Shown one piece after another: positions 5,727-49,097 of a stretch of 64,000 bases of DNA. The notes beneath the pieces are model-generated. The model had not been told where the DNA came from. It was given only the letters and a program-made list of their open reading frames with translations, and did not search any database. The position numbers and the translations under genes are program-made. The DNA is from Paludibacteraceae bacterium. Its GTDB lineage: Bacteria; Bacteroidota; Bacteroidia; Bacteroidales; Paludibacteraceae. Each line of letters opens with the position of its first letter. The first letter of the stretch is position 1. The DNA is taken from contig JAFTXV010000011.1 in NCBI GenBank assembly GCA_017461505.1, positions 124,001 to 188,000 on the forward strand. The letters run 5' to 3'.

Positions 5727-7397
5727 TTACCATGTAAAGTTATATGTCAAAGTAATACCCTGTTGTTTAGGAACATAGCGGCAAACGCCTCCTGAACAGT
5801 TGAATCCTTCTCTCGTCTTTGTATAGCCCGCCATCACGCGGTGAGCACCATGCGTATAGGTAGCTGCAACGGTGTAGAAGTGCTCGTTAGTTGCTTCGTG
5901 CGCGTAACCTATATTGTACATCCATTGTCCAGATAATACCAACTGACGCCACAGGCTGATCTCGTACAAAGCAGCTACCCATTGACCCTCATCTTGCTTG
6001 GTATAGAGATATTGCAATTCTGCACGCATTTGTACTTTCTTGTTGAGTGCATATTTAGCTTCTACCACGCCAATACCTGAACGCACTATATCGCCGTGAC
6101 CTTCAACCACTTGCTTGTTATATGTTTGATACATTGCCATAGCTCCGATATACCACTCTTTGGTTATCTTCTTGTTGAGTTCAAGATTGATATCGGTATA
6201 ATATGGCTCCTTGGTCATGCCGAACCATGTGTGAGAAGTGCCTCGGATATGCGAGGCGTTGAGCTTGAGGGTTGTGCCATAACGTCCTCCCATCTTTGTG
6301 CCGCGCTTCCATGTGTAACGGATTTCACCTTGGAAAGCCCATTCGTTGGCTGTCTTTTCTGTACCATATGGATAAAGCGAAGCGAGCATATAGGTATGCT
6401 GTGTAGCAAAGGGGGGCATGTGGTTGATGGTACCTGCCATAAGGTTGGCTTGTCTATCCGAACGCAGCGACATGTTCTCAGAACGTTTAGCTTGCGCCAA
6501 GATCGCCAATCCCTTTTGCGAATAACTCAATGACATCAGCAAGGCTTCGCCATGCTTGTAACTATAATTATTCAAGATGCTTGGATCGTTCGCCTTGTAA
6601 GCATATTCCACCATAGCGTTCCACCCCTTCATCTGCAATTGTGCACGTACGCTACCAGCACCTACCCACTGTGGCAAGTTATAATAGTAGTCGTATTTAC
6701 CCTCTGGTTGGATGACAGTGTTAAAAATAATGGTATCTTCTTTCTGATACTTACTCACATAACTACCACCAATAGTTAAGTTGGCACCTGCTTCTTGCAA
6801 CTGAGGAATCCATTCTTGCAAACCTAGATCAAGGTTCGCTCCGAGTACTGCATCTTGCTTGTAGTTCCATCCCCAAGCGCCATCGTCATAGCAGTTCCAA
6901 TTACGTCGTTGCTTACCTCCTAATGCGGTGATGTAAATACCTTTATAAGGTGTCACTTCTATCTTTCCACCACGCAATGCGTTATCTACACCCAAAGCGC
7001 GATCTTCGTATAAGCGTAGTACCAAACCACTACCAAATTGTCCATAGACATCGCCCACTGTCACTTTACCCCAATCGAAGGTGACACCCACATGTACGTG
7101 ACTGATACCATGTCCTTTGAAACTAGGATCTGCGTCATAGCCCGGCAATGGCCACTCGGTGAGTTCGGTACGTGTCATTAACTCCAGCGTCTGAAAGCCC
7201 GCCTTATTATCTTGCGAATGATCCCAACGCATGCCTAGATCCAGATAGGAGTTACTGAGGTAGTAGCCCGCATCAATAGTAGGTAGTGGTACCAAACCAT
7301 CGTGCTGGATACCGCCAACTACGTAAACGGTGTCATTTGCCGACAATAGAGTAGGCAAGAAACAGAGCAGTAATGCTATTTTATAATAATGCTTCAT
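5727..7397 (-). CDS. DUF6029 outer-membrane beta-barrel protein
   Basis: About 556 aa. The start at 7397 (MKHYYKIALLLCFLPTLLS) gives a clean signal peptide and overlaps the end of the upstream thioredoxin gene by 17 bp, suggesting translational coupling. The body has many alternating amphipathic strands rich in Tyr, Trp and Gly, and the C-terminus ends in an aromatic residue (TYNFTW), typical of an outer-membrane barrel. The segments GDVYGQFGSGLVLRLYEDR and LRGGK fit the DUF6029 family as I remember it. DUF6029 proteins have no known biochemical role. The link with TlpA and Omp28 genes suggests an outer-membrane partner for the redox proteins. Confidence 0.75.
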   Translation of the reverse strand: MKHYYKIALLLCFLPTLLSANDTVYVVGGIQHDGLVPLPTIDAGYYLSNSYLDLGMRWDHSQDNKAGFQTLELMTRTELTEWPLPGYDADPSFKGHGISHVHVGVTFDWGKVTVGDVYGQFGSGLVLRLYEDRALGVDNALRGGKIEVTPYKGIYITALGGKQRRNWNCYDDGAWGWNYKQDAVLGANLDLGLQEWIPQLQEAGANLTIGGSYVSKYQKEDTIIFNTVIQPEGKYDYYYNLPQWVGAGSVRAQLQMKGWNAMVEYAYKANDPSILNNYSYKHGEALLMSLSYSQKGLAILAQAKRSENMSLRSDRQANLMAGTINHMPPFATQHTYMLASLYPYGTEKTANEWAFQGEIRYTWKRGTKMGGRYGTTLKLNASHIRGTSHTWFGMTKEPYYTDINLELNKKITKEWYIGAMAMYQTYNKQVVEGHGDIVRSGIGVVEAKYALNKKVQMRAELQYLYTKQDEGQWVAALYEISLWRQLVLSGQWMYNIGYAHEATNEHFYTVAATYTHGAHRVMAGYTKTREGFNCSGGVCRYVPKQQGITLTYNFTW

Positions 7398-15829: not shown

Positions 15830-15835
15830 TGGGTG

Positions 15836-21210: not shown

Positions 21211-22403
21211 TGTAGAAAGCTGATAATTTGTTCGTACAGTGTTTTATGCCACGCATTACCTGCCGGATTAGAGTTATGCCAAAGAATCACCACTTCACCG
21301 CCGTTCTGCTGTATCTTCTCAAACAATCGTTGACACTCAAAATATGCTTCATCCTCGCTCAGGTTCATATAATTCGCATTGCTCAACGTGCAATCCATTA
21401 CCGTCAATGGATGCAGCACCAGATTGGTCAGTGTCATCGTTTTCGGGTTAATCCAACGCACCGCACGAGTGGTTTGCAAACGAAATCCTACATGATCAGG
21501 AAACATCATCGTAAAGTCCTCTTTCACCCCCATATCCACCAATTCCTGCATACGGTCTATCGAACAACGTAGATAATGACTACGATGTAATCCCACCTTT
21601 AACCTTTCACCTTTCACCTTTAACCTTCCACCATAATAACTCCCATGCCAGCCCATCTTTGCACCGCTGTTTTCTATCAGTTGGGCAGCAACCTCAAAAT
21701 CTTTACCTCCCAAATCATATTGGGGATAATCATATCCCTTACCATCTGTATCCTTCACAAAGTAAATACACTCTGCACCGTCCACCTTCTTGTCTTGTGC
21801 AATCAACCACGAGAAGGTAAAGGCAGGGTCGTTGTGAATATCTTTCTGAGAGGCCAATACCTTGCGCCACTGACCACGCACGATACCACCTATCGCACCA
21901 CGCAAATGGCGATAGTTGGCAATCGAATCTACATCATGCGTCAAGTAAATCTTACTGAAAGATGGAGTAGGTAGCGGCAAATCCAACAATTTCATCAGCA
22001 TACGAGAATACTCATCCACCGTAGGAATCATCAGTCGATTCTCTTTCCCCAAAATTGAATACTTCGCCAAGAATCTTCCATGCTCATCGCGCTGAGTATT
22101 AATCAATTCCTCTGCCCGCGAGATAAAGAAGAAGGTGTTATACACAATATCCGTCCGAATGACCCACTGTGTCATTGTTTCGTCTCCAGGCGCTTGCGCC
22201 GAACTACCATCTATAGCGTAGCGTTCTACAGCGCAGCGATCTAATTCCGGCATCACAATCTCTCCACCCAAATGTCCATTAGGCACAATCACCACGCGAT
22301 AGTCTTTCCACTGACTCTCGTCTGCGGTATACCCCACTTGTTGGGCGGCTGCTTCATTGCCATAAAGCAAAAAGCGGAGGATGTATTCAATTATCTCGTT
22401 CAT
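21207..22403 (-). CDS. Polysaccharide deacetylase-like protein
   Basis: About 398 aa from the ATG at 22403 (MNEIIEYILRFLLYGNEA). The upstream in-frame ATG at 22481 is excluded because the promoter -7 element lies at 22425-22432. After an N-terminal domain of about 130 aa, the NodB-like part has the metal/catalytic motif IYLTHDVDSI, MGWHGSYYG, FPDHVGFR and the late motif VVILWHNS. It probably removes acetyl groups from a cell-surface glycan. Two repeat-derived inserts are in frame: GRLKVKGERLKVG (21595-21632) and RCAVERYAIDGSSAQAPGDE (22190-22250). First gene of the six-gene operon. Confidence 0.8.
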   Translation of the reverse strand: MNEIIEYILRFLLYGNEAAAQQVGYTADESQWKDYRVVIVPNGHLGGEIVMPELDRCAVERYAIDGSSAQAPGDETMTQWVIRTDIVYNTFFFISRAEELINTQRDEHGRFLAKYSILGKENRLMIPTVDEYSRMLMKLLDLPLPTPSFSKIYLTHDVDSIANYRHLRGAIGGIVRGQWRKVLASQKDIHNDPAFTFSWLIAQDKKVDGAECIYFVKDTDGKGYDYPQYDLGGKDFEVAAQLIENSGAKMGWHGSYYGGRLKVKGERLKVGLHRSHYLRCSIDRMQELVDMGVKEDFTMMFPDHVGFRLQTTRAVRWINPKTMTLTNLVLHPLTVMDCTLSNANYMNLSEDEAYFECQRLFEKIQQNGGEVVILWHNSNPAGNAWHKTLYEQIISFLQ

Positions 22404-22509: not shown

Positions 22510-23280
22510 TTATTCTGCTATCAATATCTCTTCAATCTCTGCTTCGCTTGGATTGCGAGCTACTATCACTCCTTCACGATTAATCAGAATGGTGGTCGGA
22601 ATAGCTGATATACCATACCTATCGCATGGATTGTATTCCTCTGTGCGTTGGTCACGGATGTGCAACCATGGCAACTCATCTTCCTCTACTGCTTGCAACC
22701 ATGCGGCCTCGTCTTGGTCGCAACTTACGCCCAATATCTCCAACTTACCAGATGGATGGTAGGAGGTATACAACTCCTTCAGTACAGGCATCAACCTACG
22801 ACATGGACCGCACCATGAAGCCCAAAAGTCCACCAATACATACTCGGTCTTTCCCACCAACTCGCTCAGTGCCAAGGCGGTACCATCTGCCTTCAGCGAA
22901 ACGATGTCTATATATGGATTACCTGCTGAAGTCTTCAACTCTACTAGGTATTCCTCATATATTGGCTGCAATACAGCTGTCTCCAAACGCTCAGCGGGGA
23001 TAGCCGCAAAGAGCTCCGCCTTTTGCTCAGGAGTGAGCATATAAAAGTGAGATACCACAATAGAATCGCTAGTTTCATCCTCTACATTCGCAATCAACAG
23101 TTCATAACCCTGTGTGATAAATTCTTCAATAATTGAGTCTTTCACAACACGGTCTTCCACATTTTCCAACTGTGCCACCACATTCTCATACAACTCCGTA
23201 TATTGTTCATACGCCGTCTTCTTAGGCGTACACGCTACCAAGCAACCTAATGCCAATAGCGAAATAAAAATCTTTTTCAT
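22510..23280 (-). CDS. Thioredoxin-domain lipoprotein (TlpA/AhpC-like)
   Basis: 256 aa. Lipoprotein signal [21 protein letters not shown], with Cys at the cleavage site. The N-terminal 110 residues are helical and charged (DUF4369-like position). The thioredoxin domain has [18 protein letters not shown] (WCGPC) and the cis-Pro region [16 protein letters not shown]. It is an envelope thiol-disulfide oxidoreductase, distinct from the soluble TlpA-like protein at 7381. It stands alone with its own terminator; the upstream region is a short repeat-rich gap to ferritin. Confidence 0.87.
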
Positions 23281-31416: not shown

Positions 31417-32127
31417 ATGAATATTGTTATCATCGGTCGTGGCAACGTAGCTACCAATCTCCATTACGCATTCGCCAAGAGAGGCGTAGCGTGTCAGATG
31501 GTTAGTAGTCGTGAGGGATTAGACCAACTTCCGCAAGCTAATGTATATATCTATGCGGTCAAAGACGAAGCTTTGGCTGAAGTGGTTGCACAAGTCAAAG
31601 GAAAAGAGCGTGCCATGCACCTGCATACTTCTGGCACGATGCCTATTTCCGTGTTTGGTGCAGATAAACCGCATGCAGGTATCTTCTATCCCTTCCAAAC
31701 TTTCAGTAAGGCACGTATAATTGAGGATTTCTCTACGGTACCTGTCTTCTTTGAAGCACGCGGAATAGATGATATTAGCGCGGTGTATTCTTTGGCATTG
31801 ACCATCACTAGCCATGTGTATGAAACCACACAACACGACCGCGAACGCTTGCATGTGGCAGGAGTCTATGCGTGCAATTTCACTAATCTGATGTACACCA
31901 TGGCGGCTGACTTACTCAAGACTACGCATATTCCATTCTCTGCGCTTTTGCCATTGATTGACGAAACAGCTGCCAAGATTCACACCCTAGCTCCACGTGA
32001 TGCACAGACAGGCCCAGCTCGCCGCAATGATGAGAATGTGATGAACCACCACCTCTCATTGCTTAACGTTGAGCAACAACAGGTATATCAACTCCTATCC
32101 GAAGAAATAAGAAAAAGAAATCTTTAA
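31417..32127 (+). CDS. Rossmann-fold DUF2520 protein
   Basis: 236 aa. The N-terminal dinucleotide-binding motif NIVIIGRGNVATNL (GxGNVA) and the C-terminal helical DUF2520 domain (ERLHVAGVYACNFTNLMY, the block ALLPLIDETAAKI, then TGPARRNDENVM) identify the family, distantly related to NADP-dependent ketopantoate/pyrroline-carboxylate reductases. The substrate is unknown. It follows the M20 peptidase by 15 bp and is likely in its operon. Confidence 0.85.
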   Translation: MNIVIIGRGNVATNLHYAFAKRGVACQMVSSREGLDQLPQANVYIYAVKDEALAEVVAQVKGKERAMHLHTSGTMPISVFGADKPHAGIFYPFQTFSKARIIEDFSTVPVFFEARGIDDISAVYSLALTITSHVYETTQHDRERLHVAGVYACNFTNLMYTMAADLLKTTHIPFSALLPLIDETAAKIHTLAPRDAQTGPARRNDENVMNHHLSLLNVEQQQVYQLLSEEIRKRNL

Positions 32128-41309: not shown

Positions 41310-41340
41310 TTGCTTAATTCGAAAAAAAGTACTATCTTTG
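41310..41340 (+). promoter_or_regulatory. Promoter of a short leader transcript
   Basis: TTG (41310-41312), 20 bp, TATCTTTG (41333-41340), followed by CAGCGTCAA, as in the ATPase promoter at 42103. Confidence 0.8.
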
Positions 41341-41346
41341 CAGCGT

Positions 41347-41487
41347 CAATTCAAATGAAAACGGTTAAGACACTCCACTTTGATGCGATTAACTATTTGT
41401 ATATCAGCGTGTAACGTATGTTTGTGTGTCCTTTTTTTAGGGCTGTGTTTTTAGGGCGATAGGTGAACTATCGTCGTTTTTATTTTT
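41347..41487 (+). ncRNA. Short transcript with stop-split peptide frame
   Basis: Promoter at 41310-41340 and terminator at 41455-41487 define a transcript of about 140 nt. It contains MKTVKTLHFDAINYLYISV (41355-41414, TAA) and, after one codon in the same frame, MFVCPFFRAVFLGR (41418-41462, TAG). It may be a leader, an attenuator, or a small RNA with incidental frames. The single in-frame TAA between the two halves is notable. Confidence 0.4.
41455..41487 (+). terminator. Terminator of the short transcript
   Basis: GGCGATAG-GTGAA-CTATCGTC stem is followed by GTTTTTATTTTT. Confidence 0.75.
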
Positions 41488-41611
41488 GGCTTGACGGCTG
41501 TTTTTTGAGCAGCATTTTTACATATTTCGACGAGTATAGTACGCTATACCGTCCTTTGGTGTTTATTTGTATGCGCACACGCGCACATGTATGAAGTACT
41601 AATCACTTCGC

Positions 41612-41841
41612 CCTCTGCTCACAGAAATGAGCAATAAATTGCGCCTTTGGCGCACATGATATAACATACCTAACGAGGACTTCATGGTCTGAGTTTGCAA
41701 ATACCTAACGAGGACTTCGTGGTCTGAGTTTATAAATACCTAACGAGGACTTCATGGTCTGAGTTTATAAATACCTAACGAGGACTTCGTGAGTCCGAGT
41801 CAATAAATACCTAACGAGGACTTCGTGAGTCCGAGTTAAGA
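41612..41841 (+). repeat. Left copy of long direct repeat, with five tandem 35-bp units
   Basis: Starts with CCTCTGCTCACAGAAATGAG (hairpin GCTCA/TGAGC), then the hairpin TGCGCC-TTT-GGCGCA, then five 35-36-bp units beginning at 41671, 41706, 41741, 41776 and 41812. Each unit contains CTAACGAGGACTTC and TGAGTCCGAG or TGGTCTGAG; in the last two, GGACT and AGTCC can pair. The right copy is at 45938-46096 with three units. No spacers, so it is not a CRISPR array. Confidence 0.92.
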
Positions 41842-41861
41842 GGAGGAATGGCGGCGAGCCC

Positions 41862-41900: not shown

Positions 41901-41938
41901 CGAAGTGTTCTTTGACGTATTGACATATTTGGATTTTA
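41901..41938 (+). repeat. Cassette A left terminal inverted repeat
   Basis: CGAAGTG followed by TTCTTTGACGTATTGACATA and TTTGGATTTTA. A reverse-complement copy (about 27 of 30 bases) lies at 43621-43650, after the ATPase gene. Nearly identical sequence starts the HipBA cassette at 46975, and an inverted copy ends that cassette at 48819-48854. Confidence 0.85.
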
Positions 41939-41952
41939 CACTTTTTAGGCGG

Positions 41953-42085
41953 AATTTTCGCCAAACTCGGTAAAAATTTACCGCCAAACTCGGTAAAAGT
42001 TCCGCCAAATTCTATAGTAATTTTCCGCCAAACTCTATAGTAAGAATCCGCCAAACTCTATAGTAAGAATCCGCAAAATTCATTA
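41953..42085 (+). repeat. 23-bp tandem repeats upstream of the ATPase promoter
   Basis: About five units with CCGCCAAACT and either CGGTAAAA or CTATAGTAAGAAT. The first units form the palindrome GGTAAAAATTTACC. They end 18 bp before the promoter, where iteron-like operators would be expected. Confidence 0.85.
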
Positions 42086-42102
42086 TTTTTTTTCATAAAT
42101 AC

Positions 42103-42133
42103 TTGTATATGTGAAAAATAAGTTGTATCTTTG
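42103..42133 (+). promoter_or_regulatory. Promoter of the DUF4143 ATPase gene
   Basis: TTG (42103-42105), 20 bp, TATCTTTG (42126-42133), then CAGCGTCAA. The start codon is about 38 bp downstream. Confidence 0.8.
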
Positions 42134-42171
42134 CAGCGTCAAAAACACACGCATAATAACTATTATTTTTT

Positions 42172-43452
42172 ATGGCAGAGAAAACATACAAAAAGCGTAT
42201 TGCAGACCAGTTGTTAGCAGAACGTCTAGAAGAGGTTGGAGCAGTACTGATAGAAGGACCTAAGTGGTGTGGAAAAACCACTACTGCTCTTCAGCATGCT
42301 AAAAGTTCAGTCATGTTAGCAAACCCAGAGACTCTACAGAAGAGCAAAATCATGATTGCTACCAATTCTTCTCAGCTATTAAGCGGTAATACTCCGCGAC
42401 TGTTTGATGAGTGGCAGACCGTTCCAGAACTTTGGGATAATATCCGATATGAGGTTGACGAGCGTAATGCAGAAGGTCAATTCATATTGACGGGTTCTGC
42501 GGTGCCAGTTACATCAGACAAGATAGTGCATTCTGGTACTGGTCGCTTCGCTTGGATAACCATGCGTCCGATGAGTCTTTGGGAATCTGAAGAATCCACA
42601 GGCTCAGTGAGTCTTCAAGCACTTTTTGATGGACATCAACAAGTTGAGGGCGATTGCAAATACAAACTAGATGATATCGCTTTTAAGCTATGTCGTGGTG
42701 GATGGCCCTCATCGCTTAATCGCTCTCCAAGAGCGGCATTACGCGTGGCTAGAAATTATTTTGATGCGGTGGTAAAAACAGATTTTATCCGTGTAGATGG
42801 TACTTTGCGAGATCAAAATCGCAGCCGCATGCTTCTTCGCTCATTAGCTCGTTTACAAGGAACACAAACTGCAATTAGTGTAATCAGACAAGATATGCTT
42901 TCGAATGATGAAAGTACATTGTCGGAAGTAACGGTGGCTTCCTATATTGAGGCGTTGCGAAAAATCTTTGTAGTTGAAGATATGCCCGCATGGAGCGCTA
43001 ATTTGCGTTCCAAGACGGCTATTAGGACCAGCCCAACACGTTATTTTGTTGATCCAAGCATCGCGGTTGCCGCATTGGGTATCACACCAGCGGATTTATT
43101 GGATGATATGCAAACATTTGGTTTCCTCTTTGAGGCCATGGCTATCCGAGATTTGCGTGTGTATGCTGATGCTTTGGATGCTAAAGTTTACCATTATCGC
43201 GATAAAGATGAACTGGAATGTGATGCTGTAATAGAGTTGCGCAATGGTAGATATGCTTTGGTGGAAATCAAAATCGGTGGTATGGATAATATACTCATAG
43301 CAGCTAAGCAATTGCAGAAGTTAGCGAAGAAGATTAACACAGAGAAGATGGGCGAGCCAGCATTCCGCATGGTACTAACGGCTGTTGGTGATGAAACCTA
43401 TTGCCTTGAAGACGGCACTCTTGTAGTGCCAATTGGCTGCCTAAAGCACTGA
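42172..43452 (+). CDS. AAA ATPase with DUF4143 nuclease-like domain
   Basis: 426 aa. N-terminal AAA_14 domain: Walker A IEGPKWCGKTTTALQ, Walker B PRLFDEWQTVPE and sensor FILTGSAVP. The C-terminal DUF4143 domain is PD-(D/E)xK-like: DELECDAVIEL and YALVEIKIG keep the acidic residue and the ExK motif. Such proteins are common accessory genes of unsettled function, often scattered and variable between strains. It is the cargo of cassette A: inverted repeats at both ends, tandem repeats and promoter before it, terminator after it. Confidence 0.88.
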   Translation: MAEKTYKKRIADQLLAERLEEVGAVLIEGPKWCGKTTTALQHAKSSVMLANPETLQKSKIMIATNSSQLLSGNTPRLFDEWQTVPELWDNIRYEVDERNAEGQFILTGSAVPVTSDKIVHSGTGRFAWITMRPMSLWESEESTGSVSLQALFDGHQQVEGDCKYKLDDIAFKLCRGGWPSSLNRSPRAALRVARNYFDAVVKTDFIRVDGTLRDQNRSRMLLRSLARLQGTQTAISVIRQDMLSNDESTLSEVTVASYIEALRKIFVVEDMPAWSANLRSKTAIRTSPTRYFVDPSIAVAALGITPADLLDDMQTFGFLFEAMAIRDLRVYADALDAKVYHYRDKDELECDAVIELRNGRYALVEIKIGGMDNILIAAKQLQKLAKKINTEKMGEPAFRMVLTAVGDETYCLEDGTLVVPIGCLKH

Positions 43453-43498
43453 TTTACAGTGAAAACACGGTGCTAACACAAACTTGTATTACCATCCA

Positions 43499-43535
43499 AA
43501 TGAAATAGAGGCAAACGACTCTATTTCATTGTTTT
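43499..43535 (+). terminator. Terminator of cassette A
   Basis: TGAAATAGAG (43501-43510) pairs with CTCTATTTCA (43519-43528), followed by TTGTTTTAT. The block CCAAATGAAATAG...CAAACGACTCTATTTC is also the terminator of cassette B at 48781-48812. Confidence 0.85.
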
Positions 43536-43559
43536 ATACTCTCTCCGAAAAACACTCTA

Positions 43560-43650
43560 ACAGCCGCAGGCGGTCCAACAGCCCTCTTGGCGGTCTAACT
43601 TCTAACAGCGTTAGCGGTCTAATATCCAAATTTGTCAATACGTCAAAGAA
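43560..43650. repeat. Hairpin-like units and right inverted repeat of cassette A
   Basis: 43560-43620 has three units of the type CTAACAGC-[short G/C-rich inverted piece]-GCGGTC. 43621-43650 is the right terminal repeat, the reverse complement of TTCTTTGACGTATTGACA plus AATTTGGATATT. Confidence 0.8.
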
Positions 43651-43783
43651 GTAGGAAGTGCCCTATCTGTTTCACGACTATTAGGCGACCACGATAGGAC
43701 ATCTGTGGGACATCTGTAGCACTTCTGTGGAACTTCAAACAAAACAAAGAATAATAACTACCTTCCCTGAAGGATAATCAACA
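43651..43783. other. Gap before the 226-aa gene
   Basis: Contains GGACATCTGTGG / GGACATCTGTAG / GCACTTCTGTGG, three diverged 12-bp units of the dispersed 12-mer family, and the hairpin CCTTC-CCT-GAAGG at 43762-43772. No clear promoter was seen. Confidence 0.5.
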
Positions 43784-44464
43784 ATGACAAAGCAGGCTCA
43801 AATAGAAAACGTACCACGCACACAAGCAGAAATACTACAATTGGGCAAGGAGGTGATTTCCTACTTGCAACATTTGTGTGAAGACTATGACATGGGAAAC
43901 ACCTTTGCCATTGTGCTTGTGGCTGTTCTCCTGCGAACACTGCTTAAGACGAAAGGATCAACCGAATCTGTCTTGAAGCAGTTGGGAAAAGACACAATAG
44001 ATTTTGTTGACACACGCGCACCAATAGGTTCGTTTTCGTATTGGACATTTGGCGACAATATATGCAATCATACTTTTATTGCGCACAATGTATATGGTGG
44101 TTTGTTGAGTAAGATAGTTACCAACGGTGAGCATGGTTTGAACTTGGATTACCAACCATTGTTGGATAGAAACCGAAACGCTGATAAGCAATCTTTCGAT
44201 GATTGGTACACGGCTATTGTGTTCAAAGATTCTACATTCCAATTATCTCGCGAAGATTGCATTAATATTGTAGCAGACAAGGATGGTGGTGCTCATTTAG
44301 ACAAAAGGATTCCTCCTAAATATAGTTGTTTCCGTGAACCTACAGCATTGCAATTCATCATTGATGGCCAAATAGCTGTTTTTAACCAAAATCCCGTATA
44401 TGTTTCCATCCGCCAAATAGCATGGGAAGTATTAGAGAGTTTGAAAAGAGCAAAAGTGATTTAA
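43784..44464 (+). CDS. Protein of unknown function, first gene of accessory module
   Basis: 226 aa, no signal peptide. A hydrophobic helix lies near residues 39-52 (TFAIVLVAVLLRTLL). Conserved-looking blocks: FSYWTFGDNICNHTFIAH and INIVADKDGGAHLDKRIPPK; I have a vague memory of the DKDGGAH type of motif in uncharacterised accessory proteins, without a known function. C-terminus SIRQIAWEVLESLKRA. It is 37 bp before the P-loop gene and probably forms an operon with it. Both lie inside the long direct repeats. Confidence 0.65.
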   Translation: MTKQAQIENVPRTQAEILQLGKEVISYLQHLCEDYDMGNTFAIVLVAVLLRTLLKTKGSTESVLKQLGKDTIDFVDTRAPIGSFSYWTFGDNICNHTFIAHNVYGGLLSKIVTNGEHGLNLDYQPLLDRNRNADKQSFDDWYTAIVFKDSTFQLSREDCINIVADKDGGAHLDKRIPPKYSCFREPTALQFIIDGQIAVFNQNPVYVSIRQIAWEVLESLKRAKVI

Positions 44465-44501
44465 AAAACAGATAACAAACCCCGCCTAGACAAAAAGAAA
44501 T

Positions 44502-45908
44502 ATGGCATTATTTGTAATATATGGCTACCAAAATTCAGGCAAGACGCATACGGCTTGGCTGGTGTATAATCTGCTCAAGGCAGCAGGTTCTAAATTGTAT
44601 TTTGAAAGCCATCCTGCACAAAACGAACTCACATACGCTGAGGTATTGCAACATATTACAGACAGATATAATGCTCCTGACACCACACCTCACATCTCGG
44701 ATTTTAGAGCATTAATTGAGTACAAAGGTAAAAAGGTGGCAATCTTCAGTGCAGGTGATTGTGTGAAAGATTATAATTGGGCAGTCACTAGTTTAGTAGA
44801 TAATTTGGATTGGGCACAAAAGGAGGGGGCTGACCATATCGTTTGTTGCTCAAGATATATAAATCGAGCAGGTTCTGTACAACGCTACTTGTTAGACAAT
44901 TACAATATATACAAATTGTATCATAAATCTCGCACAAATATTCTCTCTGAGCAATTAGCGGATATACAAAAGGTAGCAAAAAAAATATTTACAGATATAA
45001 AACATAGTAGTATGCTTCAATCAGCACTGCAGGACGCATATAATCAAGATAATAATATTGGAGAAGTTGGTTTATTTCAAAGGATAATTGAATATTTTGA
45101 GTGTCATCCTAAATGCACTCCTATCAAGATGCACCAACATTATGTTCAATATGGTAATCCTGTTGTTAAATGTGAAATCTCAGACATATTATTTGTGTCT
45201 TATTCGAAGCATTATCCTTGGATGAAAATAAATTTTTTGCAAGCAAAAAAAGCGGATTTTAACAATAGGAAAGAGGGATTGGTTTCAAATAATACAAAAT
45301 TAAAGTTTAGTATTGACAAAAATCAGTATAATTTATTGAAGGATCGTCCTGAAATTGACCCATTGAAAACAGGATTGCCTAAAGACATTTTGAGTAAAGC
45401 ATGTAATGCGTCAATCACTTCATATGGAGTATTCTACAATGCTTCGAATTCTAGTAAGACTACTACGGTTGAATTTGCATTTGAGATTACTGATTTATTG
45501 CAACCTACTCCAAAAGTTACAAGGGCTTGTTTTGGAACAATTGACACCTACTATGGTTGTATTTGCAATAATAAATATTGTCATTGTCATTGTTGGCATG
45601 AACTTAATTTATTGACGACTTTAGATACAGATTGTTTTGAGAACGCACTATTAAATTTCCAAATAGGTTCACCTATTGAAGATGAAGGGGCAATCCACTT
45701 AGCAAAAGCCATTGAAGCACTTTTACAAAAAGAGGGGAAAAGCAACCATTCATTCATGCAATTTATGCAAAAACATGAACATCAGTGGAAATCTATTTCG
45801 AATGATAATAATAAAGGTTTAGACATGGACAATCTCGAATCGTTATCATCCATTCAATATGTTGTATTGGTAGATATTGACAACGAAGAATACAGCAATA
45901 ACGATTAA
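44502..45908 (+). CDS. P-loop NTPase with possible nuclease domain
   Basis: 468 aa. Walker A at the very N-terminus (FVIYGYQNSGKTHTAW), followed by a compact NTPase-like domain to about residue 165 with VAIFSAGD and DHIVCCSRY. The second half is unassigned. EISDILFVSY followed 15 residues later by FLQAKKADF resembles the D...QxK core of PD-(D/E)xK nucleases (inference). A cysteine/histidine cluster, CICNNKYCHCHCWHE, lies near residue 355 and could bind zinc. Base composition is clearly more AT-rich than the flanking housekeeping genes, suggesting transfer. A sensor-effector defence protein is one possible reading. Confidence 0.6.
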   Translation: MALFVIYGYQNSGKTHTAWLVYNLLKAAGSKLYFESHPAQNELTYAEVLQHITDRYNAPDTTPHISDFRALIEYKGKKVAIFSAGDCVKDYNWAVTSLVDNLDWAQKEGADHIVCCSRYINRAGSVQRYLLDNYNIYKLYHKSRTNILSEQLADIQKVAKKIFTDIKHSSMLQSALQDAYNQDNNIGEVGLFQRIIEYFECHPKCTPIKMHQHYVQYGNPVVKCEISDILFVSYSKHYPWMKINFLQAKKADFNNRKEGLVSNNTKLKFSIDKNQYNLLKDRPEIDPLKTGLPKDILSKACNASITSYGVFYNASNSSKTTTVEFAFEITDLLQPTPKVTRACFGTIDTYYGCICNNKYCHCHCWHELNLLTTLDTDCFENALLNFQIGSPIEDEGAIHLAKAIEALLQKEGKSNHSFMQFMQKHEHQWKSISNDNNKGLDMDNLESLSSIQYVVLVDIDNEEYSNND

Positions 45909-45937
45909 TCCCCCACGGGCACGGGTCATTGGTTTGA

Positions 45938-46096
45938 CCTCTGCTCACAGAAATGAGCAATAAATTGCGCCTTTGGCGCACATGATATAACATGCCTAAC
46001 GAGGACTTCGTGGTCTGAGTTTATAAATACCTAACGAGGACTTCGTGAGTCCGAGTCAATAAATATCTAACGAGGACTTCGTGAGTCCGAGTTAAG
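45938..46096 (+). repeat. Right copy of long direct repeat, with three tandem 35-bp units
   Basis: The first 94 bp match 41612-41705 with only a few mismatches, including both hairpins (GCTCA/TGAGC and TGCGCC-TTT-GGCGCA). The 35-36-bp units begin at 45997, 46032 and 46068. Together with the left copy it brackets about 4.3 kb with the ATPase cassette and the two-gene module. Confidence 0.92.
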
Positions 46097-46271
46097 AGCG
46101 GAGGCGCATGTCGCCCAATGATGCAAGGCATCAGTCATTGCGACCATGCTGCCGAACGCGAAAGTGTTCTTTGACATATTGATATGATAAAAATCTATTT
46201 GAGATAGGGTAGGTTTTTGGAGGTTCTTTACAACTCCCATAGAACTTCGCTTACCACTCGGTTACCACTAA
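46097..46271. other. Gap with a third, diverged left-end sequence
   Basis: 46160-46203 has GTGTTCTTTGACATATTGAT, a diverged form of the cassette left end, followed by ATGATAAAAATCTATTTGAG; a related ATTGATATGATAAAAA segment is at 49019-49034. Diverged 12-bp units (CATAGAACTTCG, ACTCGGTTACC) follow near 46230-46262. No gene is seen. Confidence 0.55.
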
Positions 46272-46901
46272 TCACGTGCCGCCACTGTCACCTCTGTATT
46301 TTGGTGTCAAATAACGGCTCGGTTCTGTGGTACCTTCTTCTGCTGTTATACTAATATTATCAATGTAACAACTGTATGTTGTAATTGCATTCCCCTTGTT
46401 CGATGTCCCTTCTGCAGGTGAAATGGTTAGGACAACTTTATCAAACTGTTGCAGGTCTGAAAAAGTATATGTGCTATATGAAGTTGTTTTGTTGCTCCAT
46501 GTTATTGTGGTAGAATTTGTATATACAACATTATTATTTAAGTATGTGGTAAAAGTCACGTGTGGCCATGTTTGTGTTGTACTAGGGAAAGAAGTCCATG
46601 CAGCGTCAAGTGTAAATTGAATATTGGTATATGACGATAAATCAAATCCAGCAAATGTGAACGTGTTATTATTTTTTGAAGTACCTCCAAACGATGGCTT
46701 AGGATTTCCATTATTGTTATTGATATTACCTGATGCTGTAATGTTGTTAGTGGTTCCTGATGCTCCTGTATTGGAATAAATTGTCTCACCCCACACCTGT
46801 CCTATTCCGACAATAAGGAGCATAGTTAATACCATCACAAGGCGTTTGCCTAATGTTTTGCTTAAAGCACTTGCTTGACTGAAAAGTAGATTTGTCATCA
46901 T
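46272..46901 (-). CDS. Secreted surface-protein fragment or short paralogue
   Basis: 209 aa. Long signal peptide ending in VLTMLLIVGIGQVWGE, very like MVLMTIGIGSAWGE of the 2341-aa adhesin, so the two share export and cleavage signals. The mature part is Ser/Thr/Asn-rich and beta-rich and looks like a carbohydrate-binding/jelly-roll type domain (VVLTISPAEGTSNKGNAITTY, CYIDNISITAEE). It stops soon after this domain and lacks any sorting tag, so it may be the remaining 5' part of a larger gene broken by the island. Alone among the surface genes here it lies on the - strand. Confidence 0.55.
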   Translation of the reverse strand: MMTNLLFSQASALSKTLGKRLVMVLTMLLIVGIGQVWGETIYSNTGASGTTNNITASGNINNNNGNPKPSFGGTSKNNNTFTFAGFDLSSYTNIQFTLDAAWTSFPSTTQTWPHVTFTTYLNNNVVYTNSTTITWSNKTTSYSTYTFSDLQQFDKVVLTISPAEGTSNKGNAITTYSCYIDNISITAEEGTTEPSRYLTPKYRGDSGGT

Positions 46902-46974
46902 ATCTTTATGTTTTAATTATTAGCACATCAATAGCCCCCATGGGCGTTGAAATATAACGGCTCTGCCGTAAACG
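46902..46974. other. Gap with hairpin before cassette B
   Basis: AT-rich, with CCCCATGGG and the micro-hairpin ACGGC-TCT-GCCGT (46957-46969). No gene is seen. Confidence 0.4.
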
Positions 46975-47020
46975 CGTTCTTTGACGTATTGACATATTTG
47001 GATTTTACACTTTTTAGGCG
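46975..47020 (+). repeat. Cassette B left terminal inverted repeat
   Basis: TTCTTTGACGTATTGACATA, then TTTGGATTTTACACTTTTTAGGCG. Identical over more than 40 bp to 41908-41951 at the start of cassette A. The inverted partner is at 48819-48854. Confidence 0.88.
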
Positions 47021-47098
47021 CACTTTTTGTGAAATATCACACTTTTTAGTCGCACTTTTTGCAAAATATCACACTTTTTAGGCGCACTTTCTTGCACA
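47003..47098 (+). repeat. Three direct repeats upstream of the hipBA promoter
   Basis: About 32-34-bp units with CACACTTTTTAGGCGCACTTT (first 20 bases shown as CACACTTTTTAGGCGCACTT) and TTGTGAAATAT or TTGCAAAATAT. The last unit overlaps the promoter TTG. Position and spacing suggest operator sites. Confidence 0.8.
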
Positions 47099-47122
47099 AT
47101 TCAAAAAAAAGCAGTATCTTTG
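47092..47122 (+). promoter_or_regulatory. Promoter of hipBA
   Basis: TTG (47092-47094), 20 bp, TATCTTTG (47115-47122), then CAGC. Same form as the promoters at 41310 and 42103. Confidence 0.8.
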
Positions 47123-47130
47123 CAGCCGAA

Positions 47131-47182
47131 TTAAACTATCATATAATATAGTTTATATTTTCATTTGTGTTACTATATGATA
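47131..47182 (+). promoter_or_regulatory. Likely HipB operator sites in the hipBA leader
   Basis: AAACTAT (47133-47139) and ATAGTTT (47148-47154) form an inverted repeat around CATATA, and a second half-site TACTATATGATA follows at 47171-47182. They lie between transcription start and the hipB ATG, where the antitoxin is expected to bind for autorepression. Confidence 0.55.
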
Positions 47183-47195
47183 TTTTATTGGTATT

Positions 47196-47516
47196 ATGAG
47201 CAAGTCCACACAAAGTACTCTTCTGCCACGGAGAGCCCAAAAAAACTTAGCCATTGTAGGCGAACAAATTCGTTTGGCTCGTTTGCGTCGTGATATTAGC
47301 ATTGCGCAAATTGCTGATCGTGCAGGTTGTTCAGAACTGACGGTAATGCGTGTCGAAAAAGGTACTCCTTCTGTAGCGATAGGTACATATCTGCGCATTC
47401 TATTTGCCCTGAACTTGGACGAGGATATCCTATTGATTGCGCAGCAAGACACCATCGGTCGTGAGTTGCAAGACCTATCACTCAAAAAACGCCAACGTGC
47501 ATCATCAAAACAATAG
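47196..47516 (+). CDS. hipB: HipB-like XRE antitoxin
   Basis: 106 aa. Helix-turn-helix of the XRE type: GEQIRLARLRRDISIAQIADRAGCSELTVMRVEKGTPSVAI. The N- and C-terminal tails are basic. It lies 3 bp before hipA, the classical antitoxin-first order. It should bind the operator in its own leader and neutralise HipA. Confidence 0.88.
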   Translation: MSKSTQSTLLPRRAQKNLAIVGEQIRLARLRRDISIAQIADRAGCSELTVMRVEKGTPSVAIGTYLRILFALNLDEDILLIAQQDTIGRELQDLSLKKRQRASSKQ

Positions 47517-47519
47517 ACT

Positions 47520-48755
47520 ATGCAAGAGATTGAAGTATATCTTGACCACAATGCCCAATTAGAATTGGTGGGTAAACTTACCTACGAACAATTGCGAGGT
47601 AATGCTACGTACCATTTCTCATATGATGCTGCGTGGCTGACTAATCATCCACACTTATCCTTGAGTGGTGATTTGCAATCCCATACAGGTTGGCAGCATG
47701 CAACAAAGCGCCTCTTTGGTTGTTTCACAGATGCCTTGCCTGACCGTTGGGGACGGCGTTTGATTGATAAACGCGAGCAGATTGTGGCTCAAGCAGAGAA
47801 TAGAATTCCTCGAACATTCAGTGATTTTGATTATCTGCTTCAGTTGGATGATTACTCTCGTATGGGAGCGTTCAGATTTCGCATAGCTGGCGAAAAGAAT
47901 TTTATCGGCACTTCTGATGGTGAGATGTCTGTACCTCCACTCACATCGCTACGCGATTTCACGCAGATAGCACAGGCGTACGAGGCAAAACCTGATAATA
48001 TACAATGGGTTACCAATCTGTTACGTCAAGGCTCATCCTTAGGCGGAGCACGTCCGAAAGCCAATATGATGGATGAAAATGGCATGTTATATATTGCCAA
48101 GGTGCCATCCATTCATGACGACTACGATGTGGCTCTTTGGGAACATTTTGCTCATCAGTTAGCGAAGAAAGCAGGCATACAGGTTGCTGAAACTAAGCTT
48201 ATGGCTATCTCGGGTTTCTCTCATCATGTATTGCTATCCAAACGCTTTGACCGAATGGGAGCCAATCGTGTACATTCCGTATCCGCTATGACGCTCACCA
48301 ATCTTCAGGATGGCGCAGATGCTTCTTCGGGGAATGGATATTTGGACATTGTGGATACGATTGTCAGTGGCATGGGTATTGCAGATGCGGATAAGAATCT
48401 CAGAGAATTGTACCGTCGAGTGGCTTTCTCTATTTGCATAGGCAATCACGATGATCACTTCCGCAATCACGCCTTTGTTTTGACATCCAATGGTTGGACA
48501 CTTTCGCCAGCATATGATATTAATCCCACTAACATGCTGACTCAGAGTTTGCTGATTTCTGATTGTTCCTGCGAATCCTCGCTTATGGAGTTGCAGCGCG
48601 CTTCAGGACACTACTTATTATCTGAAGAAATAGCATTGCAGATCATCAACGAGGTGAAAGATGCAGTCCGTGATTGGCGTAAGGTAGCAACGCTTTGCCA
48701 CATTACTCCAGCAGAACAGCAGCGTTTTGCAAAACGATTGGAGTATTGCTTGTAA
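47520..48755 (+). CDS. hipA: HipA-family serine/threonine kinase toxin
   Basis: 411 aa. N-terminal HipA_N-like part (EIEVYLDHNAQLELVGKLTYEQL), then the kinase: phosphate loop RQGSSLGGARPKAN, active-site Lys region YIAKVPS, KRFDRMG, catalytic loop IGNHDDHFRNHAFVL and metal motif LSPAYDINP. HipA toxins phosphorylate aminoacyl-tRNA synthetases and cause growth arrest; the target here is unknown. All key residues appear present. The GTP/ATP loop serine is retained, so autophosphorylation is possible. Confidence 0.92.
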   Translation: MQEIEVYLDHNAQLELVGKLTYEQLRGNATYHFSYDAAWLTNHPHLSLSGDLQSHTGWQHATKRLFGCFTDALPDRWGRRLIDKREQIVAQAENRIPRTFSDFDYLLQLDDYSRMGAFRFRIAGEKNFIGTSDGEMSVPPLTSLRDFTQIAQAYEAKPDNIQWVTNLLRQGSSLGGARPKANMMDENGMLYIAKVPSIHDDYDVALWEHFAHQLAKKAGIQVAETKLMAISGFSHHVLLSKRFDRMGANRVHSVSAMTLTNLQDGADASSGNGYLDIVDTIVSGMGIADADKNLRELYRRVAFSICIGNHDDHFRNHAFVLTSNGWTLSPAYDINPTNMLTQSLLISDCSCESSLMELQRASGHYLLSEEIALQIINEVKDAVRDWRKVATLCHITPAEQQRFAKRLEYCL

Positions 48756-48780
48756 CCACATAACGAACTTTCCGTTCAAT

Positions 48781-48818
48781 CCAAATGAAATAGGGTCAAA
48801 CGACTCTATTTCTATTTT
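48781..48818 (+). terminator. Terminator of cassette B
   Basis: GAAATAGGGT pairs with ACTCTATTTC (one G-T pair), followed by TATTTTTA. The surrounding bases CCAAATGAAATAG and CAAACGACTCTATTTC match the terminator of cassette A. Confidence 0.85.
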
Positions 48819-48854
48819 TATCCAAATTATGTCAACATTTCAAAGATCACTTCG
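48819..48854 (-). repeat. Cassette B right terminal inverted repeat
   Basis: On the - strand it reads CGAAGTGATCTTTGAAATG then TTGACATAATTTGGATAA, matching the left ends at 41901 and 46975, including the CGAAGTG that precedes the left end of cassette A. Confidence 0.8.
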
Positions 48855-49097
48855 CGGCAGAGCCGCTATATTAGGTTATAGGTCAAAGGCGAAAGGTTAA
48901 AGGCACGAACCTCATCTTCGCTATAAACCTTAATAACTCAACACAACGCACCAAAGGTGCAAACAACATAACAACGTCGCTTTGCGACACACAACGTTCG
49001 GCTCGCCGAACAAGAAATATTGATATGATAAAAAAACTCGTTATCAATTAAATAATACTTATAAGACCCCAGTATATTGCCCCTTATATGCCACCTA
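48855..49097. repeat. Run of micro-hairpins after cassette B
   Basis: GCGGC-AGA-GCCGC at the start; then heptamer-like GGTTA/GGTTAAAGG units; then GCACC-AAA-GGTGC, GTCGC-TTT-GCGAC and TTCGGC-TC-GCCGAA, separated by AACATAACAAC- and ACACAACG-like linkers. 49019-49034 resembles 46179-46193. No gene is seen. Confidence 0.75.

Follow-up and report, generated by a model that had tools for sequence, protein, structure and literature searches.

A 64,000-nucleotide (nt) stretch of a Paludibacteraceae bacterium genome (assembly GCA_017461505.1, contig JAFTXV010000011.1, positions 124,001 to 188,000; hereafter the window) carries two units that have the same ends and unrelated cargo: unit A (41908-43650), with a DUF4143/AAA_14 ATPase gene, and unit B (46977-48847), with the toxin-antitoxin pair HipBA. 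We take A and B, with a probability of roughly 0.62, to be members of a family of non-autonomous gene cassettes restricted to one lineage and shuffled by recombination at common ends, promoters and flanks. Comparison with related genomes shows exchange and relocation of cargo, junctions at the core of the end and at the promoter's -7 box, and inverted ends that match in class.

Cassettes at 41901-43650 and 46975-48854 were part of the original prediction, which was made from the letters of the window; both are present, with their edges corrected to those given above. The predicted identity of more than 40 bp between the left ends of A and B is matched by 45 identical bases (by reading; 92% identity over 59 nt in the repeat comparison). 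Exact copies of the 20-bp end stand at 41908-41927 (+) and 46977-46996 (+), and inverted copies at 43631-43650 (-), with one mismatch, and 48828-48847 (-), with four. As to the inverted copy expected at the right of each unit, that of A pairs with its left end over 34 nt at 91%, and that of B has to be shifted by 1 bp before it matches its own left end (by reading). One further copy, missed earlier, lies at 46167-46186 (+), with three mismatches to the 20-bp end. Across the whole genome of the window (G000; 1.74 Mb in 22 contigs, completeness 81.85%), a 28-bp version of the end with up to three mismatches has three copies, all in A and B, and its reversed control has none, which excludes chance as the source of these ends. 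Between the ends, both units hold the parts foreseen for them: a tandem-repeat block (23-nt unit in A, 32-nt unit in B), a TTG-N20-TATCTTTGCAGC sequence that is presumably a promoter of the Bacteroidota type (box at 42126 in A and 47115 in B, with a third at 41333 outside both units), cargo genes that are indeed unrelated, and terminators with common bases, both strong hairpins (z -6.4 and -5.4). A domain scan of the proteins found no transposase within the units, in keeping with the predicted absence of transposase and integrase.

The ends were compared over 22 stretches from 11 genomes (set I; 250 kb), chosen for holding a core. Each end consists of a 16-bp core, WTCTTTGAMRTRTTGA, followed by about 12 bp of inner sequence that falls into a few classes. 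Of the 65 core sites in set I, 39 are free of mismatches, 16 have one mismatch, and 10 have two together with a matching inner class. When consecutive inward-facing cores within 4.5 kb are taken as a unit, there are 18 units: class 1 (TTGACATATTTGGAT) accounts for 13 and class 2 (TTGAAAATGACTGA) for 5; further inner classes are TTGATATGATRAAAATC and TTGTAGAGAAA. The inner class is equal at both ends in 18/18 units, a result expected once in 8,568 if 13 and 5 are dealt randomly, units with related cargo not being independent. All but one of the 36 unit ends are within one edit of the class sequence, and the remaining one is within three. One of the 18 units, in G068, spans two convergent ATPase genes, and another, of 286 bp in G021, has no open reading frame (ORF) of at least 60 amino acids. 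Just outside the core, a small hairpin of varying sequence is found in 31 of 65 outer 30-mers; the corresponding figures are 316 of 4257 for other intergenic 30-mers and 3% for shuffles.

An all-against-all alignment of the set I stretches identifies the core as a breakpoint of homology. At 40 of 65 sites, alignments of unit interiors stop between -10 and +3 relative to the outer edge of the core, and those of outer flanks stop just inside the core (+10 to +30) at 46 and at the outer edge at 24, alignments of related stretches not being independent. The corresponding null means over 100 trials are 2.2, 3.1 and 2.4 for any position and 7.1, 9.6 and 6.8 (maxima 14, 16 and 13) for intergenic positions; the intergenic control is the fairer one, and against it the excess is smaller, yet outside all 100 trials. 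Homology thus breaks at the core, so that a common flank and core are often followed by different units. For example, G014 6406-7354 and G067 C9 8291-9241 are alike over 951 bp at 86%, a shared part that covers the end of a YhcG gene with the flank that follows it, and diverge at core +15.

The cassettes look exchangeable, in that related species have different genes between nearly identical ends. G025 C4 matches the left part of B (21533-21688 vs window 46975-47130, 156 bp) at 92% and its right part (23014-23117 vs window 48753-48856, 105 bp) at 87%, and has a 440-amino-acid ATPase between these ends in place of HipBA. G067 likewise has the outer flank, left end and promoter of B (L129 11066-10819 vs window 46886-47130, 92%) with the same 440-amino-acid ATPase downstream. 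Its HipBA (window 47114-48830, 88.6%), alike from the -7 box on, stands about 0.85 kb from that B-type end and adjoins a gene whose window counterpart (31417-32108) has no HipBA beside it. The junction of the HipBA/ATPase exchange is located at the -7 box, within about 17 bp of sequence surrounding it, rather than in the end. On the right side of HipBA in G062 there are, by reading, an inverted B-type left end, repeats and a promoter truncated inside the -7 box. As for relocation, a 402-amino-acid ATPase unit in G000 C8 (L069 6657-8348) and in G067 (L132) is 97.3% identical over 1,693 bp, compared with 75.7, 76.0, 75.8 and 82.3% in four other segments of these two genomes; its neighbours differ (YhcG vs BRO), and one edge of the match lies 7 bp outside the core. 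A BRO unit (L070 vs L132), at the baseline identity of 82.8%, is found at different loci; one of its edges lies 8 bp outside the core. Exchange and relocation in relatives bear out the prediction of a cassette family with the same ends, promoter and terminator beyond the window.

The predicted cargo is mostly of the defence or toxin-antitoxin type. The ATPase of unit A matches the PADLOC candidate PDC-S01 (E 1.2e-69), and the cargo types recognised by Pfam and PADLOC include AAA_14/DUF4143 ATPases of several subfamilies (PDC-S01), ATPase_2, YhcG/DUF1016 nucleases (PDC-S02), HipBA, ParE, Fic, BRO and DUF2442; one array also has a DUF4062 gene. Exceptions are a gene behind a core without any match (L130 9591) and a Kinase-PolyVal protein (L139). 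The only transposase among the scanned proteins, in L047, is part of a DUF4372 insertion sequence and not of a unit.

The family is most likely lineage-restricted. The 28-bp end was found in 2 of 61 genomes (the window's own and 60 relatives), namely G000 and G025, and the shorter core, with up to one mismatch, at 48 sites in 15 of the 41 genomes of the genus, where the reversed pattern has one site. In a search of one genome per species over 84,980 species, in which the window's own record was possibly left out, the class-1 end pattern has 16 matches in 12 stretches from 7 assemblies. All seven are titled as Paludibacteraceae or Bacteroidales metagenome-assembled genomes; four titles name ruminant gut samples (water buffalo twice, dairy cattle and water deer), and the other three name no source. 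The viral contigs searched contain neither class-1 nor class-2 ends and just three relatives of one cargo (24-45% identity), and among the plasmids searched the unit A protein has only relatives of less than 60% identity (best 54.5%). A second set, of 14 sites from other species (set II; G011, G012, G016, G033 and G064), has a sense-side ORF at 10 sites, among which are one BRO gene, one insertion-sequence remnant and one probably spurious ORF, and has no inverted partner at any of the 14. The original prediction had named single end sequences upstream of genes as the finding that would count against cassettes; this holds for the bare core, which does occur singly, and paired units exist beside it.

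Table 1. Features of units A and B and their surroundings, in window coordinates
Feature	Position	Strand	Description
A left end	41908..41938	+	16-bp core (41908-41923) and class-1 inner sequence
A tandem-repeat block	41941..42081	+	23-nt unit of CCGCCAAACTCTATAGTAAGAAT type
A promoter-like sequence	42103..42137	+	TTG-N20-TATCTTTGCAGC
A cargo	42172..43452	+	AAA_14/DUF4143 ATPase, PADLOC candidate PDC-S01
A terminator	43499..43530	+	Hairpin
A right end	43623..43650	-	Inverted; 26/28 vs left end
Extra core	46167..46182	+	Inner class 3 (TTGATATGATAAAAATC)
B outer flank	46886..46976		Common to G067; mini-hairpin (46957-46969) just outside core
B left end	46977..47007	+	Core (46977-46992) and class-1 inner sequence
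B tandem repeats	47002..47097	+	Three copies of 32-nt unit
B promoter-like sequence	47092..47126	+	TTG-N20-TATCTTTGCAGC; cargo-exchange junction in its -7 box
B cargo, antitoxin	47196..47516	+	HipB-like, helix-turn-helix
B cargo, toxin	47520..48755	+	HipA-like kinase
B terminator	48783..48817	+	Hairpin
B right end	48820..48847	-	Inverted (ATCTTTGAAATGTTGACATAATTTGGAT)

A complete unit is bounded on both sides by inverted ends, each with its core and class-specific inner sequence. Between them lie, in order, usually tandem repeats, a promoter, a single gene or operon of the toxin-antitoxin or candidate anti-phage kind, and a terminator. We propose that such units would travel between loci and species by recombination at common ends, promoter boxes, terminators and flanking repeats. 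The paired ends would be, or would have been at least at some time, recognised in trans by a putative recombinase or transposase, and later shuffling would proceed largely by recombination at common modules. The likely effect would be a changing supply of defence and addiction genes, each of which would arrive ready for expression.

Several observations weigh against this proposal. Three signs of insertion looked for at the suggestion of the original prediction are lacking: target-site duplications of 4-9 bp are found at the exact edge in 0 of 18 units, a joined-flank search, with one genome available per species, gave no base-exact empty site, and no transposase or recombinase with the same ends was seen among the few candidates examined, no systematic search having been made. 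Within 4 bp of the edge, 2 of 18 units have a duplicated 4-mer, where shuffling gives a mean of 1.4. Unit A has one duplicated 6-mer there, GAAGTG, for which the shuffled mean is 0.09; this is not enough for a rule. The transposon version of the cassette idea is therefore not supported. By script, a right-hand core is missing from 17 of 32 left ends in set I and from 10 of 10 in set II. The HipBA of G067 has no ends, and no core is found around it from L129 11212 to 16000. The far edge of the 97.3% match lies about 155 bp beyond a degenerate left end (L069 8174-8193). Finally, unit A is 78.7% identical between G000 and G025, and two neighbouring common segments are 79.6 and 74.9% identical; its identity is no better than that of its neighbours, so no recent transfer is shown, and this copy may have been inherited vertically.

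Some details qualify these counts. Of the 65 sites, the script scored 32 as left ends (15 with and 17 without a right partner), 22 as right-type ends and 11 as lacking an ORF; the left end of B is wrongly among the 11, as a shadow ORF masked hipB, and the 15 include a class-3 core that lies outside another unit. Some right partners are only degenerate (e.g., L070 and L069, by reading), and the direct arrays of G014, G066 and G069 consist of left ends only. The joined-flank search gave 23 spanning matches. Fourteen are the units' own flanks; the other 9 have low identity (64-76%) or extend over the joint by no more than 12-15 bases. In the best of these, at L070 3594-3399 (73% over 197), a copy of the repeat has no unit but holds other sequence in the gap. 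None was counted as an empty site. A hot spot lies downstream of one gene, here called X, where units with different cargo are found in G000 C8, G014, G067 (two loci) and G069. X has 29 matches in the genus, from which 20 stretches were taken, two unit-bearing loci and some others being left out; these 20 have no core by the script criterion, which counts in favour of the proposal, and in several of them X is directly followed by an operon of other genes. Identity to X is mostly 25-38%, so these are distant or paralogous loci and not exact empty sites.

Two candidate mobilisers were rejected. Sites in G008, G016, G023 and G064 lie in DUF4372 (IS4-family) elements or their remnants, but there the core is internal to the element's own ends, the core-like string standing about 24 bp inside the terminal GTCCACTAAAAA (by reading); the family is present in 4 of 41 genomes and absent from G000 and G025. 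The other candidate, a serine recombinase presumably of the Mpi type, is found in 31 of 41 genomes of the genus, and does not co-occur with cores at the thresholds used (11 of 15 core genomes vs 20 of 26 core-less ones).

Much of the evidence could also be read as homologous or short-homology recombination, whether by RecA or micro-homology, that swaps content between intergenic repeats without a dedicated enzyme ever having acted on the ends; intergenic regions would then be mosaics of hairpin arrays, tandem repeats, cores, promoters and terminators. This is a serious contender that we place somewhat short of even odds. Outer flank and core alignments of 60 to 951 bp common to different loci, the exchange junction at the -7 box, edges without duplications, and right ends and terminators mixed between cargos are all consistent with it, but single-flank swaps would break the pairing seen in 18/18 class-matched ends, and one 16-bp core links one flank type to classes 1, 2 and 3 (window 46167, G068 1336, G067 C19 4889). 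The pairing would be natural for transposon units of the mobile insertion cassette (MIC) type, moved in trans by a transposase with the same terminal repeats, as would the terminal inverted repeats of 28-34 bp, the promoter and passenger in a transposase-free interior, and relocated units such as the BRO unit. We nevertheless regard this as rather unlikely, given the absence of target-site duplication at the edge, the lack of an insertion sequence with these ends (transposases not having been searched systematically) and the internal position of the similar string in DUF4372 elements. Phase variation, in which the ends serve inversion of the unit by the Mpi-like recombinase, is very improbable: this recombinase has three copies in G000 and lies near class-2 ends in G021 and G032 (L067:2576-3190, L068:3250-3855), and the promoter-type end in G062 points inward from the 3' side of HipBA, but the lack of co-occurrence argues against it.

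A further set of explanations starts from the likeness of the core to a signal of ribosomal RNA (rRNA) operons. A site within one mismatch of the core follows the 16S gene by about 140-490 bp in 3 of 4 rRNA operons found in 17 order-level relatives, the fourth having none; a search for 16S genes in 8 genus genomes found none. We take this site to be boxA; it presumably lies in the 16S-23S spacer, although the start of the 23S gene was not located. The core may accordingly be a plausible borrowing or mimicry of boxA. A role of boxA in rRNA operons has been described (PMC7862264). Were the core simply a boxA-like antitermination signal in the RNA upstream of many genes, the cassettes would be ordinary genes that happen to have it. 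Single cores before various genes in G033 and G064 fit this account, and boxA may explain those cores. For the units it fails, because the cores of A and B (41908 and 46977) are upstream of the promoters (42103 and 47092) and would hence be outside the unit's own transcript rather than in a leader, an inverted copy follows the terminator, inner classes match, and homology breaks at the core; as an account of the whole it seems to us distinctly unlikely. Alternatively, a core borrowed from or mimicking boxA might itself be the recombination site, at which a putative recombinase would join any core-ended flank to any unit in either orientation, so that defence and toxin-antitoxin genes would be loaded chromosome-wide into core-bearing sites beside small hairpins; this we consider unlikely, if less so.

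No description of these ends was found in the open-access literature searched by topic. As reported for MIC231 and mic-qnrD (PMC3913671), a MIC is a passenger with its own promoter between imperfect inverted repeats, without a transposase; in mic-qnrD these are 24 bp long, and mic-qnrD and pVERM hold different passengers between similar repeats. The units resemble MICs in this layout, but differ in having no edge duplication, a usual feature of MICs (4-9 bp were scored, and that of mic-qnrD is 2 bp), no insertion sequence found with the unit ends (one family examined, no systematic search), and a common core with differing inner classes, many units lacking a right end. The plasmid dif (pdif) modules of Acinetobacter also carry toxin-antitoxin and accessory genes, shuffled and swapped, between short, inversely oriented sites, which consist of 11-bp XerC and XerD arms around a 6-bp spacer (PMC13141974). 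The unit ends lack, by reading, the XerC/XerD arms TTCG-ATAA / TTATG (as given in that source, and possibly not those of Bacteroidales), and each of the neighbouring units keeps its own ends, the units being separated by spacers of 135, 170 and 184 bp without a common site; in a dyad score of the ends against a dif-like layout, the dif control itself scored little better. We therefore file the units under neither heading, since target duplication is absent and the anatomy of a dif site was not seen. They are alike to rRNA boxA in core sequence (within one mismatch in 3/4 operons) and unlike it in three ways: the unit core stands outside the promoter, it recurs in inverted orientation at the far end, and class-specific sequence comes after it. 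The commonest cargos match the PADLOC models PDC-S01 and PDC-S02, but these are gene families, whereas the present finding concerns the common DNA ends by which such genes are carried. In rumen genomes, PDC-S01 ranks among the most abundant candidate systems (PMC13356809).

Studies of mobile defence genes often begin with large islands, prophages or integrons. In the units described here, a short, searchable signature bounds single defence candidates (PDC-S01, PDC-S02, HipBA, Fic, ParE and BRO); the ends alone could reveal new candidates in this gut Bacteroidales lineage, and the spread of orphan defence genes without an obvious vehicle becomes directly testable.

Other features of the window and its relatives were noted. 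The class-3 core at 46167 adjoins a surface-protein-like fragment (46272-46901, -). The window genes between the units (43784-44464 and 44502-45908) have no Pfam, PADLOC or other profile match, NCBIfam included for the second, which encodes a 468-amino-acid protein. Its 93.3% nucleotide identity to the G025 copy, compared with 75-80% in neighbouring segments, suggests that it is likely another mobile gene, one without core ends. A 35-36-nt tandem repeat (CTAACGAGGACTTCGTGAGTCCGAGT...) at 41607-41860 and 45933-46100, with a 115-nt stretch 95% alike, stands before unit A and before the class-3 core. A leader-like conserved element (promoter and TCAATTCAAATGAAAACGGTTAAGACACTCCACTTTGATGCG) lies beside units in the window (41336-41409), in G025 C4 (23576-23503 and 6146-6113) and in G067 (L129 11769-11650), with partial window copies at 15830 and 22414. 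Arrays of small hairpins with stems all different and short A-rich linkers were seen by reading at window 48940-49020, L069 6560-6665 and other intergenic sites. A further core class (TTCTTTGACGTATTGTAGAGAAA) lies 3' of Fic and DUF4143 genes in L134, L142 and L143 (G067, G025 and G062), and in L144 and L148 it has no gene close on its inner side.

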